From NCBI GenBank assembly GCA_035651955.1, contig DASRES010000074.1, positions 1 to 33,557 on the forward strand: a stretch of DNA of 33,557 nt, in the 5' to 3' direction. A program made the translations under genes and the position numbers. The first letter of the stretch is position 1. Every line of letters starts with the position of its first letter. Under the pieces are notes generated by a model, which did no database searches, was not told the origin of the DNA, and saw nothing but the letters and a program-made list of their open reading frames with translations. Origin of the DNA: Acidimicrobiia bacterium (GTDB taxonomy: Bacteria; Actinomycetota; Acidimicrobiia; IMCC26256; JAMXLJ01). Of the stretch, positions 23,438-27,198 are shown one piece after another.

Positions 23438-23923
23438 TCAGCCTCCGGTCCTGGGATGGGGCAGACGGCGCAGCAACGTTGCCATCTCGATCGCCGTGCA
23501 GGCCGCTTCGGCGCCCTTGTTCCCCTCCGCGCCGCCCGCCCGGGCCAGCGCCTGGTCGAGGTCGTCGGTCGTCAGGACGCCGAACGCGCACGGCACACCG
23601 GTGTCGAGCGACACCCGCATGATCCCCGCGGCACACTCCCCCGCGACGTACTCGAAGTGCGGCGTGTCGCCGCGGATCACGGCGCCGAGGCACACGACGG
23701 CGTCGTACCCGTGCGTCGCCGCGAGCCGCATCGCGACGATCGGGATCTCGAACGCGCCCGGCACCCAGTGGACGGGCACGTCGTCGTCGACACCGGCGTC
23801 GCGGAGCGCACCGAGCGCGCCGTCGAGCAACGGCTTCGTGATGTGGTCGTTGAAGCGCGCCGCGACGACCGCGACGCGCAACCCGCGCCCGTCGAGCTCG
23901 CTCGCCGGCGAATACTCACCCAT
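23438..23923 (-). CDS. ribH: 6,7-dimethyl-8-ribityllumazine synthase RibH
   Basis: Lumazine synthase, 161 residues, condenses the ribitylaminouracil with 3,4-dihydroxybutanone 4-phosphate to form the lumazine used by riboflavin synthase. VAVVAARFNDHITKPLLDGAL, VPGAFEIPIVAMRLA, VCLGAVIRGDTPHFEYVAGECAAGIMRVSLDTGVPCAFGVLTTDD and the late GAEGNKGAEAACTAIEMATLLR are the standard conserved blocks, with the active-site His in TPHFEYV. Related enzymes build pentamers or 60-subunit capsids. The ATG starts three bases after ribBA; hisG follows after eight bases. Confidence 0.96.
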   Translation of the reverse strand: MGEYSPASELDGRGLRVAVVAARFNDHITKPLLDGALGALRDAGVDDDVPVHWVPGAFEIPIVAMRLAATHGYDAVVCLGAVIRGDTPHFEYVAGECAAGIMRVSLDTGVPCAFGVLTTDDLDQALARAGGAEGNKGAEAACTAIEMATLLRRLPHPRTGG

Positions 23924-23926
23924 GCG

Positions 23927-25153
23927 TCAGCTCGTCCCGAGGCCCTCGTCGCCGAGGTCGAGGAGATGACCGAGCTTCTCCTGCTTCGCGCGCAGGTACG
24001 CGATGTTCTCCTGGTTGGGCACGGTGCTGAGCGGGACGCGCTCGACGATCTCGAGCCCGTACCCGTCGAGACCGCCGTACTTGGCGGGGTTGTTCGTCAT
24101 CAACCGCATCGTGGTGATGCCGAGATCGACGAGGATCTGCGACCCGATCCCGTACTCGCGCTTGTCGACCGGGAAGCCGAGCTCCACGTTCGCCTCGACC
24201 GTGTCGCGCCCGCGGTCCTGCAGGTTGTACGCGCGCATCTTGTGGCCGAGCCCGATCCCACGGCCTTCGTGGCCGCGCAGGTACACGACGGCTCCCTCGC
24301 CCTCCTCGGCGATGCGCGCCAACGCGAGGTCGAGCTGGACGCCGCAGTCGCACCGCATCGACCCGAACACGTCGCCGGTGAGGCACTCGCTGTGGACGCG
24401 CACGAGGACGTTCTGCTTGCCCGCGACCTCGCCGCGCACGAACGCCATGTGCTCCACGCCGTCGAGCAAAGACTCGAACACGTACGCGGTGAAGTCGCCG
24501 TGGCGCGTCGGGATGCGCGCCTCCGACACGCGCCGTACCAGCTTCTCCTGGTGGCGTCGGTAGCGGATGAGGTCGGCGATCGAGATCATCAGGAGGCCGT
24601 GCTCGGCCGCGAGCGCCTCGAGCTGCGGCAGACGGGCCATCGTGCCGTCGTCGTTGACGACCTCGGCGAGGATCCCGGCCGGGTAGCACCCGGCGAGCCG
24701 CGCGAGATCGATCGCGGCCTCGGTGTGCCCCGCTCGCTTCAACACGCCGCCCTCGCGGTACCGCAACGGGAAGATGTGACCCGGCCGCATCAGGTCGTCC
24801 GGCTTGGTGCGCTTCTCGATCAGCGTGTGCACGGTCGTCGTGCGGTCGGCCGCGGAGATCCCGGTCGTCGTCCCGACGCGCGCGTCCACCGACACCGTGA
24901 AGGCGGTGCGGTGGTGCTCGGTGTTGTTCGCGACCATCAACGGGAGCTGCAGCTCGTCGAGCCGCGCGCCGAGCATCGGCATGCAGATGACGCCGCTCGT
25001 GTGACGGACCATGAAGCCCATCGCCTCGGTCGTGACGCGCTCCGCGGCCATGATGAGGTCGCCCTCGTTCTCGCGGTCGGCGTCGTCCACGACGATCACC
25101 ATCTCGCCGCGCCCGATCGCCTCGATCGCGTCCTCGATCCTGCTGAACGGCAT
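23927..25153 (-). CDS. ribBA: Bifunctional DHBP synthase / GTP cyclohydrolase II RibBA
   Basis: A 408-residue fusion that supplies both branches of riboflavin synthesis. Residues about 1-200 are the DHBP synthase, which turns ribulose 5-phosphate into 3,4-dihydroxybutanone 4-phosphate (acidic loop DDADRENEGDLIMAAE at 23-38, and GHTEAAIDLARLAG). Residues about 205-400 are GTP cyclohydrolase II, with the zinc cysteines in CLTGDVFGSMRCDCG, the RGHEGRGIGLGHKM loop, and NNPAKYGGLDGYGL. Both halves look intact. The ATG at 25153 has a GGAAGGA site. A 21-base gap separates it from ribE. Ribulose 5-phosphate is also the substrate of Rpe, encoded further right in this window. Confidence 0.97.
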   Translation of the reverse strand: MPFSRIEDAIEAIGRGEMVIVVDDADRENEGDLIMAAERVTTEAMGFMVRHTSGVICMPMLGARLDELQLPLMVANNTEHHRTAFTVSVDARVGTTTGISAADRTTTVHTLIEKRTKPDDLMRPGHIFPLRYREGGVLKRAGHTEAAIDLARLAGCYPAGILAEVVNDDGTMARLPQLEALAAEHGLLMISIADLIRYRRHQEKLVRRVSEARIPTRHGDFTAYVFESLLDGVEHMAFVRGEVAGKQNVLVRVHSECLTGDVFGSMRCDCGVQLDLALARIAEEGEGAVVYLRGHEGRGIGLGHKMRAYNLQDRGRDTVEANVELGFPVDKREYGIGSQILVDLGITTMRLMTNNPAKYGGLDGYGLEIVERVPLSTVPNQENIAYLRAKQEKLGHLLDLGDEGLGTS

Positions 25154-25174: not shown

Positions 25175-25771
25175 CTACGCAGATGCGGAGAGCAGTCGCT
25201 CGACGTACTTCGCGAGCACGTCGACCTCGAGGTTCACCCGGTCACCCGGCCGCGCGGTGCCGAGCGTCGTCACCGCGAGCGTGTGCGGGATGACGGCGAC
25301 CGAGAAGCCGTCGCCATGCAGCGCGGCGACTGTGAGGCTGATGCCGTCCACGGTGATCGAGCCCTTCTCGACGACGTAGCGCAGCAGTCCCGGTGGTGTG
25401 GTGATCGTCACGCGCGTCGACCCGTCGTCGAGCGGCTCCCGGCCGGCGACGGTGCCGACGCCGTCGACGTGGCCCTGCACGATGTGGCCACCGAGTCGGT
25501 CGGCGAGGCGGACGGGGCGTTCGAGATTGACGGGATCACCGGCGCGCAGGCCGCCGAGCGAGGTGCGCTCGAGCGTCTCGACGACGGCGTCGGCCGCCCA
25601 CCAGCCGTCGCCGACGCCGACGACCGTGAGGCAGCAGCCGTTGACCGCGATCGACGCGCCGTCCTGTGCGTCGTCGAGGACACGCTCGCACCCGATCTCG
25701 AGCCGCGCGCCGCCGTCGTGGTGGTCCACGCGTCGCACGCGCCCGAGCTCCTCGACGATGCCGGTGAACAT
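25175..25771 (-). CDS. ribE: Riboflavin synthase alpha chain RibE
   Basis: Riboflavin synthase, 198 residues, dismutates two lumazine molecules to riboflavin and the pyrimidine precursor. It is made of two similar lumazine-binding barrels: MFTGIVEELGRV...GCCLTVVGV...ERTSLGGLRAGDPVNLERPVRLADRLGGHIVQGHVDG in the first, then GSITVDGISLTVAAL...IPHTLAVTTLGTARPGDRVNLEVDVLAKYVERLL in the second. The N-terminal MFTGIVEE is diagnostic, which separates it from lumazine proteins with lost catalysis. The ATG overlaps the ribD stop by one base (TGATG). Some nomenclatures call this gene ribC. Confidence 0.97.
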   Translation of the reverse strand: MFTGIVEELGRVRRVDHHDGGARLEIGCERVLDDAQDGASIAVNGCCLTVVGVGDGWWAADAVVETLERTSLGGLRAGDPVNLERPVRLADRLGGHIVQGHVDGVGTVAGREPLDDGSTRVTITTPPGLLRYVVEKGSITVDGISLTVAALHGDGFSVAVIPHTLAVTTLGTARPGDRVNLEVDVLAKYVERLLSASA

Positions 25772-26910
25772 CAGTCCATGGCTCCCGGCGTCGGCGTCAG
25801 GTCGAGCCGGGCGTCATTGCCGACGCGCGTGACCGACGTGAGCTGCCATTGCGACGCATCGCCGATCGTCGCCGCTCCGGGCAGCGCGAACGCAGGACGC
25901 CCGCGATCGCCGATGACGACGGGTGCGACGTACGCGACGACGGCGTCGGCGAGCCCGGCCTCCAGGAACGACGCGTGGACGGTGGGGCCGCCTTCGACGA
26001 GGACCTGCAGCACGCCGAGCCCACCGAGCACCGCGAGGGTCCCGGCCAGGTCGACGCCGGCCCCGGCGGATGACGGTTCGACGAGCTCGACCTTGGCACC
26101 CGCGGCCCGCCAGGCGTCGACGGCGCGCGTGGGTGCGGCGTCGGTCGTGACGACGAGCGTCGGTGCGAGCGCGGTGTCGAACAGCGGACCGGTGGCCGGG
26201 ACCCGACCGCGCGCGTCGACCACGACACGCACCGGCGCGACGCGCGGCGGGTCGTCGACGTCGCGGACCGTCAGCGACGGCTCGTCCGCCAGCGCGGTCC
26301 CCGCGCCGACGAGCACGGCCTGGCTGTCGGCACGTAGCTCGTGCGCGTCGCGGCGGGCGTCCGGACCCGTGATCCAGCGTGACGTGCCATCGGCCGCGGC
26401 GACGCGCCCGTCGACGCTCGTTGCCGTCTTCAAGAGCGCATACGCGCGCCCCGTGCGGCGGTGGTGGAGGTACGCGGCCAACGACGCCCGGGCGTCGTGC
26501 GCGCCGGCACCGACGTCGACGGTGATCCCCGCGTCGCGCAGGACGGCGATCCCGCGTCCGGCGACGTTCGGGTCGGGGTCCTCGAGCGCGACGACGACAC
26601 GCGCCACCCCGGCATCGCGCACCGCGTCGACGCACGGCGGCGTGCGGCCGTGGTGCGAGCACGGCTCGAGCGTGGTGTAGAGCGTGGCGCCGCGGGCGCG
26701 CGCACCGGCGGCGCGCAAGGCGTGAATCTCGGCGTGAGGCCCGCCGGGCGGCGACGTCGCACCCTCACCGACGATCTCGTCACCGTGCGCGACGACGGCG
26801 CCGACCCACGGGTTCGGCGCGGTGTGGCGGCGGACGGAGCGGGCGAGGTCGACCGCGCGCGCCATGAGCCGGGCGTCGGTCTCGGGTCCTGCGTCCCCCG
26901 CTGCGGGCAC
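25771..26910 (-). CDS. ribD: Bifunctional riboflavin deaminase/reductase RibD
   Basis: A 379-residue fusion of pyrimidine deaminase and reductase, carrying out two consecutive steps of riboflavin synthesis after GTP cyclohydrolase II. The deaminase zinc site is HAE (59-61) and PCSHHGRTPPC (83-93). The reductase half (from about 145) shows LLKTATSVDGRVAAADGTSRWITGPDARRDAHELRA, NADPH-binding VVVDARGRVP, and LVEGGPTVHASFLEAGLADAVVAYVAPVVIG. The GTG at 26910 is chosen because a perfect GGAGGA lies five bases upstream and an FMN riboswitch precedes it; longer in-frame readings would run through the riboswitch itself. It is the first cistron of the rib operon. Confidence 0.95.
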   Translation of the reverse strand: MPAAGDAGPETDARLMARAVDLARSVRRHTAPNPWVGAVVAHGDEIVGEGATSPPGGPHAEIHALRAAGARARGATLYTTLEPCSHHGRTPPCVDAVRDAGVARVVVALEDPDPNVAGRGIAVLRDAGITVDVGAGAHDARASLAAYLHHRRTGRAYALLKTATSVDGRVAAADGTSRWITGPDARRDAHELRADSQAVLVGAGTALADEPSLTVRDVDDPPRVAPVRVVVDARGRVPATGPLFDTALAPTLVVTTDAAPTRAVDAWRAAGAKVELVEPSSAGAGVDLAGTLAVLGGLGVLQVLVEGGPTVHASFLEAGLADAVVAYVAPVVIGDRGRPAFALPGAATIGDASQWQLTSVTRVGNDARLDLTPTPGAMD

Positions 26911-26915
26911 TGGTT

Positions 26916-26979
26916 CCTCCCGACCCTGCGGGAAGGCGCGGGAACAGCGCGCAGTGGCCACGTGCGGCCACGTCTGCGC
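26916..26979 (-). promoter_or_regulatory. FMN riboswitch expression platform: SD-sequestering hairpin and upstream hairpin
   Basis: Between the aptamer and ribD two hairpins can form in the mRNA. The first is 26949-26954 with 26974-26979 plus an inner TGGCC/GGCCA stem. The second pairs CCTTCCCG (minus strand, 26936-26929) with CGGGAGG (26922-26916), which is the ribD Shine-Dalgarno. The aptamer's 3' strand GGGAGAGGGCGC could instead pair with GCGCCTTCCC and free the ribosome site. This is the usual logic of a translation-off switch. There is no U-run for termination. Confidence 0.65.
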
Positions 26980-27146
26980 CCTCTCCCATCCGGACTGTGA
27001 CCGTCGGCCCAGGACTTCGGCCGCCGCCGGTGCGGCGCCCGGCACCTGGTCGACCGCACGGCTGGCTGCCGTGGGCTCGCGGGCTCCCGCGACCAGTGTC
27101 GCGGCTACCGCCGGTCGGGACTTCCACCCAACCCCGAGGGCCGTTG
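26980..27146 (-). ncRNA. FMN riboswitch (RFN element)
   Basis: The minus strand reads GGGGTTGGGTGGAAGTCCCG, then ACCGGCGGT, a variable GC-rich arm, GGTCGACCAGGTGCCGG, CCGAAGTCCTGGGCCGACGGT and finally AGTCCGGATGGGAGAGGG. These are the conserved blocks of the RFN element around its six-helix junction. The P1 helix pairs GCCCTC near 27140 with GAGGGC near 26980. It binds flavin mononucleotide and lies in the 5' leader of ribD, so FMN should lower expression of the whole rib-hisG-csp transcript or at least of ribD translation. Boundaries are accurate to about ten bases. Confidence 0.95.
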
Positions 27147-27169
27147 CTCTTGTGTGATCTGGGATATCG

Positions 27170-27198
27170 AGGATACCGCCAGTGAACCTGACGGACAA
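27170..27198 (-). promoter_or_regulatory. Predicted sigma-A type promoter of the rib operon
   Basis: On the minus strand TTGTCC (27198-27193) and TATCCT (27175-27170) are separated by exactly 17 bases. Transcription from about base 27163 would begin some 15-20 bases before the riboswitch, an arrangement common for riboswitch genes. The match is good for so GC-rich a genome. Not experimentally known. Confidence 0.6.

Follow-up and report, generated by a model that had tools for sequence, protein, structure and literature searches.

How does a leader that carries an FMN aptamer pass the state of that aptamer on to the riboflavin genes behind it, and which strand of the aptamer is given up when the leader changes its fold? 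These questions are raised by a locus in the window, by which we mean the whole stretch of DNA analyzed (33,557 nucleotides; contig DASRES010000074.1 of assembly GCA_035651955.1, from an Acidimicrobiia bacterium). A first-pass annotation of the same letters had proposed an FMN riboswitch that regulates translation of ribD, in which a short strand of the linker between aptamer and gene moves between the Shine-Dalgarno (SD) sequence and the 3′ edge of the aptamer's first helix, P1. The analysis described below leads us to an OFF-type FMN riboswitch that would act mainly on the translation of ribD-ribE-ribBA-ribH, through an exchange between a strand at the 5′ side of the aptamer (strand A) and an arm of the linker (strand D), combined with masking of the SD and the GTG start codon. 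We regard this reading as moderately probable. The features on which it draws are collected in Table 1.

Table 1. Features of the ribD leader and operon, in coordinates of the window
Feature	Positions	Strand	Basis or remark
-35-like hexamer TTGTCC, weak	27193..27198	minus	4/6 matches; absent from promoter-scanner list
-10-like hexamer TATCCT	27170..27175	minus	sequence; TAnnnT box recurring in the order
Aptamer, helices P1-P6	26974..27145	minus	RF00050, 63.5 bits, E 5.3e-14
Strand A GGCCCUCGGGG (P1 5′ strand + J1/2 + P2 start)	27132..27142	minus	5′-strand complementarity order-wide; own-versus-swapped test
P1 5′ strand GCCCUC	27136..27141	minus	RF00050 alignment, sequence
Hairpin inserted in L5 T-loop, 24 nt	27019..27042 (about)	minus	covariance-model alignment; same site in sister species
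P1 3′ strand GAGGGC	26978..26983	minus	RF00050 alignment, sequence
Linker hairpin GUGGCC-GCACGU-GGCCAC, between aptamer and platform	26954..26971	minus	predicted folds; position kept in sister species
Better-scoring putative sequestor, 5′ arm GCGCUGUUCC	26941..26950	minus	helix probability, P1 forced
CCUUCCC, anti-SD strand of the first-pass annotation	26930..26936	minus	letters present; pairing not above chance, approximately zero ensemble probability
Strand D UCCCGCAGGGUC, putative anti-P1 arm	26922..26933	minus	11 pairs with A, bulged C at 26928; directly before SD
SD GGGAGG	26916..26921	minus	sequence
Better-scoring putative sequestor, 3′ arm GGAACCAGUGC (3′ part of SD + GTG start)	26907..26917	minus	helix probability, P1 forced
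ribD (deaminase + RibD_C), GTG start at 26910	25771..26910	minus	PF00383, PF01872
ribE (riboflavin synthase)	25175..25771	minus	PF00677 twice
ribBA	23927..25153	minus	PF00926, PF00925
ribH	23438..23923	minus	PF00885

The Operon and Its Promoter

Pfam domains identify ribD, ribE, ribBA, and ribH in that order downstream of the aptamer on the minus strand, and the closest relatives of RibD in named genomes are found in Acidimicrobiales MAGs. The ends of ribD and ribE overlap in the letters TGATG, an arrangement that probably couples their translation. The ribD frame also continues upstream without a stop; it crosses the entire aptamer and reaches a TTG at 27198 (25771-27198 on the minus strand, 475 codons), so that automated gene prediction could take the riboswitch for coding sequence.

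The promoter named by the first-pass annotation survives in part. Its two hexamers, TTGTCC-17-TATCCT, match only 8 of the 12 consensus bases, and the pair was not listed by the promoter scanner; of 34 leaders from the window's order, however, 26 have a TAnnnT box at this position, compared with 9.1 ± 2.5 in shuffles, and the -10 hexamer is therefore credible.

In other leaders (L003, L007, L011, L018, L050, and others), an inverted repeat of 14 bases, TRGAACNNGTTNCA, precedes the aptamer by 40-80 nt. A looser pattern places it near the -35 position in 19 of the 34 ribD leaders of the order; in the eight genomes tried it occurs only one to nine times per genome, and none stands before ribD in the window. 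We take the repeat to resemble the operator of KstR, a regulator of the TetR type, and a transcription factor that controls the riboflavin operon may bind it.

The FMN Aptamer

A covariance search, the check that accompanied the first-pass annotation, aligns RF00050 from end to end with positions 26974-27145 of the minus strand (model positions 1-138 of 138, 63.5 bits, E 5.3e-14), though below the gathering score of the family, and this is the only FMN riboswitch match across the genome. An Rfam scan at the gathering threshold lists nothing for the leader because 63.5 bits falls short of the curated 66.2 bits, a limit set for annotation and not a biological property. The sister species likewise has one match, at 63.1 bits, which is also under gathering. 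In the window, the core letters and helices fit the model with high posterior, and the core is identical in the two species while the flanks diverge. Together with the rib operon downstream, the full-length match bears out the placing of an FMN riboswitch ahead of ribD: the aptamer is established by homology, and the element is, to judge from its sequence, a genuine member of the class that presumably binds FMN.

The low score likely has its reason in L5, the loop of P5, where five positions of the model hold 29 here, and where a hairpin has been inserted. An insertion occupies the same site in the sister species (L002) and, in different form, in L031 and L050. Compared with the RFN element as RF00050 describes it, then, the window has the whole model, every helix, and a rib operon behind it; it differs in the 24-nt insertion and in its score, which is 63.5 bits where the family asks for 66.2 or more.

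Complementarity between Aptamer and Linker

In most linkers of the order, a motif similar to GCCCCGNGGGC stands shortly upstream of the SD; its reverse complement gives the first letters of the aptamer itself, GCCCUCGGGGU. When aptamer nucleotides 1-21 are paired with the linker and compared with dinucleotide shuffles, the complementarity across 30 leaders is far beyond chance (Fisher 6.5e-13; 4e-12 in a rerun). Moved along the aptamer, the test gives its strongest signal at the 5′ end (mean z -1.66, Fisher 1e-10), with little at the 3′ end (z -0.26, Fisher 0.097). The variable letters that follow GGGG co-vary with the linker: L007-L009, for example, combine CGGGGUAUG with CAUACCCCG, and L025 combines GGGGUGCGGGU with ACCCGCGCCC. 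Aptamers paired with their own linkers beat swapped combinations (permutation p 0.0019; Wilcoxon test between families, 0.012). The window's linker finds its best partner in its own aptamer (-31.0, versus a mean of -24.9 for 28 others).

Taken singly, the A-D duplex of the window has a p value of 0.04-0.17, depending on the length taken. In the sister species A and D pair only with an internal loop, and that linker fits its own aptamer no better than the average swapped one. The strength of the A-D case lies in the relatives, the window by itself being borderline, and it is comparison that supports the exchange. From these comparisons, the conserved exchange most likely uses the 5′ strand of P1, J1/2, and P2 and not the 3′ edge. 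A conserved CCC-NNN-GGG mini-hairpin before the SD was also considered as a separate element and has been superseded, since A-D complementarity explains the same letters.

Possible Masking of the Ribosome-Binding Site and the Level of Control

How the exchange could reach the ribosome-binding site was followed in ensemble models. For transcripts with 3′ ends at 26905-26897, forcing P1 gives the helix between 26950-26941 and 26917-26907 a probability of 0.75-0.85 and lowers the accessibility of the SD and start codon to 0.24-0.26, versus 0.46-0.61 in the unconstrained fold, in which A:D has a probability of 0.45-0.72 and P1 is near zero; no more than 1.4 kcal/mol separates the A:D ensemble from that of P1. 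The sequestor weakens or vanishes for most longer transcripts and is nearly gone at 3′ ends of 26889-26881 or beyond 26857. No significant change of accessibility with P1 was seen across the order (Wilcoxon 0.13) or, compared with shuffles, in the window (p 0.15-0.43); SD accessibility gives a weak signal over the order (Fisher 0.02). The unconstrained minimum-energy fold proved unusable as proof of a switch; it breaks the aptamer and varies with the transcript end. As modeled, sequestration of the SD and start codon by this helix is plausible.

We suspect that the leader works as follows. In the absence of FMN, arm D (26933-26922), emerging just before the SD, would invade the 5′ side of the aptamer and pair with strand A (27142-27132), thereby dismantling P1. 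Because A and D would then be paired across the leader, no hairpin enclosing D could form, and the SD and GTG would stay available. With FMN bound, strand A would be locked into P1/P2 and D would be free; the downstream segment would fold over the SD and start codon, most likely by the sequestor helix described above, and the TGATG overlap would carry the block on to ribE. We infer that A:D pairing occurs in the cell in this way and that masking is what would lower expression when FMN is bound.

The first-pass annotation saw no terminator U-run, and we find no terminator-like site between the aptamer and ribD. This absence supports the translational sequestering type that had been assigned, which also agrees with what has been described for this class of mechanism and remains a probable reading; the particular exchange at 26936-26930 by which that type was to be realized is unsupported. 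It may be, instead, that FMN acts on elongation or stability of the transcript (through Rho-dependent termination, a terminator without U residues, or RNase cleavage) and that any effect at the SD is secondary. E. coli ribB uses Rho besides translational control (PMC10085680; PMC5234074), which keeps a Rho-dependent mechanism alive for the window, terminators lacking a U-run are possible (a caveat in PMC2258182), and the modeled change in SD accessibility is, as noted, not significant. Against such a mechanism stand the missing terminator-like site, a leader with no feature pointing specifically to Rho, and the observation that translation attenuation is the commonest assignment outside Firmicutes (PMC2258182). 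We consider action on the transcript unlikely, but worth keeping in mind.

The 3′ Edge of P1 as a Proposed Alternative Partner

In the exchange put forward by the first-pass annotation, CCUUCCC would lie on the SD with FMN bound and on the 3′ edge of P1 without it. All of the letters it named are in place: GCCCUC and GAGGGC of P1, CCTTCCC at 26936-26930, the SD GGGAGG at 26921-26916, and the GTG at 26910. In its best form the pairing with the 3′ edge, GCGCCUUC (26939-26932) with GAGGGCGC (26983-26976), is an 8-pair helix of the classic 3′-strand kind, and the letters GGGCGC/GCGCC are retained in the sister species. This helix could even coexist with A:D, in which it would be nested, but the double exchange, possible on paper, scores poorly, about 11 kcal/mol worse than A:D alone.

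What speaks against CCUUCCC as the moving strand is, first, that double complementarity equal to its own arises in 20.6% of dinucleotide-shuffled linkers, the linker having a high content of G and C. The energies of the two duplexes point the same way, both for linker with SD (window p 0.12; Fisher 0.18 over 30 leaders of the order) and for the 3′ strand of P1 with linker (window p 0.09; Fisher 0.21 over the same number). A convincing conserved linker partner of the 3′ strand was not found in the order, the Fisher value being 0.097 in a 21-nt scan and 0.03, at best, in a 20-nt test. Finally, the proposed SD-hiding hairpin carries approximately zero probability when P1 is forced, at every 3′ end tried, lying about 6 kcal/mol above the ensemble. 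An exchange at the 3′ edge is in our estimation quite improbable; the first-pass annotation was right about the class of riboswitch and most likely wrong about the strand that moves. That the aptamer is a degenerate relic whose regulation has been lost, as the sub-gathering score in both species of the genus and the hairpin within L5 might suggest, is a notion we can scarcely credit, given core letters and helices that match RF00050 with high posterior, a core identical in the sister species while the flanks diverge, and an intact rib operon behind it.

Discussion

The exchange between strands A and D that we favor has counterparts elsewhere. In E. coli thiC, probing and mutation have documented a long-range anti-P1 stem that enters the aptamer from its 5′ side, and stems of this kind are predicted for E. 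coli ribB, thiB, thiM, lysC, and btuB (PMC5234074; PMC11476745); in the ribB leader, we find complementarity between UCAGGGCGG and CUGCCCUGA. The window resembles these translational riboswitches in that the 5′ strand of the aptamer finds its complement in a linker strand close to the start codon, and pairing of the two would exclude both P1 and the stem predicted to mask the ribosome-binding site. It differs in belonging to the Acidimicrobiales, in having its arm directly upstream of the SD and matched to the aptamer of its own species, and in being described here from its sequence. The geometry is thus already known from E. coli, and the window adds an Acidimicrobiales case. A literature search returned no paper that joins Acidimicrobia with an FMN riboswitch; the founding comparison of RFN attenuators (NAR 2002) lay outside the scope of that search.

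The B. subtilis ribD switch, of the terminator type, has the same aptamer and the same target genes, but there the platform complements the 3′ strand of P1, whereas the window is without a terminator. As a check on the method, FMN switches sampled from the wider phylum were scored too. Many of them have a U-tailed hairpin behind the aptamer, and in this set the pattern is reversed: it is the 3′ strand that finds its complement (Fisher 1e-10), which is what the classic antiterminator model predicts. A Proteobacterial set, small at n=14, gives a Fisher value of 0.005 for the A strand that comes mainly from two members. The strongest 5′-strand case that we found is at a Pseudoxanthomonas locus (L174), where aptamer 5′ strand and linker share 18 consecutive pairs, CGACGTCTTCAGGGCGGGGC with TCCCCGCCCTGGGGGCGTTC.

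Within the same class there is also a different arrangement. In family f24 (L056, L057, L064-L067, and others) the start codon of ribD comes immediately after the aptamer, and the sole SD-like sequence of these leaders (AAGGGGAC, AAGGAGGGC) is supplied by the 3′ strand of P1. Judged by these letters, the family has a direct-sequestration platform.

It is tempting to extend the A-D exchange to the order. Across this order of the Acidimicrobiia, the linker arm immediately before the ribD SD would then invade three elements together, the 5′ strand of P1, J1/2, and P2. The arm would co-evolve with the variable letters of J1/2 and P2, and its exchange would replace the 3′-strand exchange of terminator-type members of the same phylum. 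We see this generalization as evenly balanced between acceptance and doubt.

For this genus, the Rfam cut-off misses what appears to be a real FMN riboswitch. The analysis also corrects which strand of the aptamer most likely moves, and it gives letters by which the correction can be tested. In a larger context, a simple shuffle test tells the 5′-strand from the 3′-strand geometry, and its outcome suggests that the FMN riboswitches of one phylum use two geometries of exchange, one at the 5′ strand, in the translational switches of this order, and the other at the 3′ strand, in those of the terminator type.
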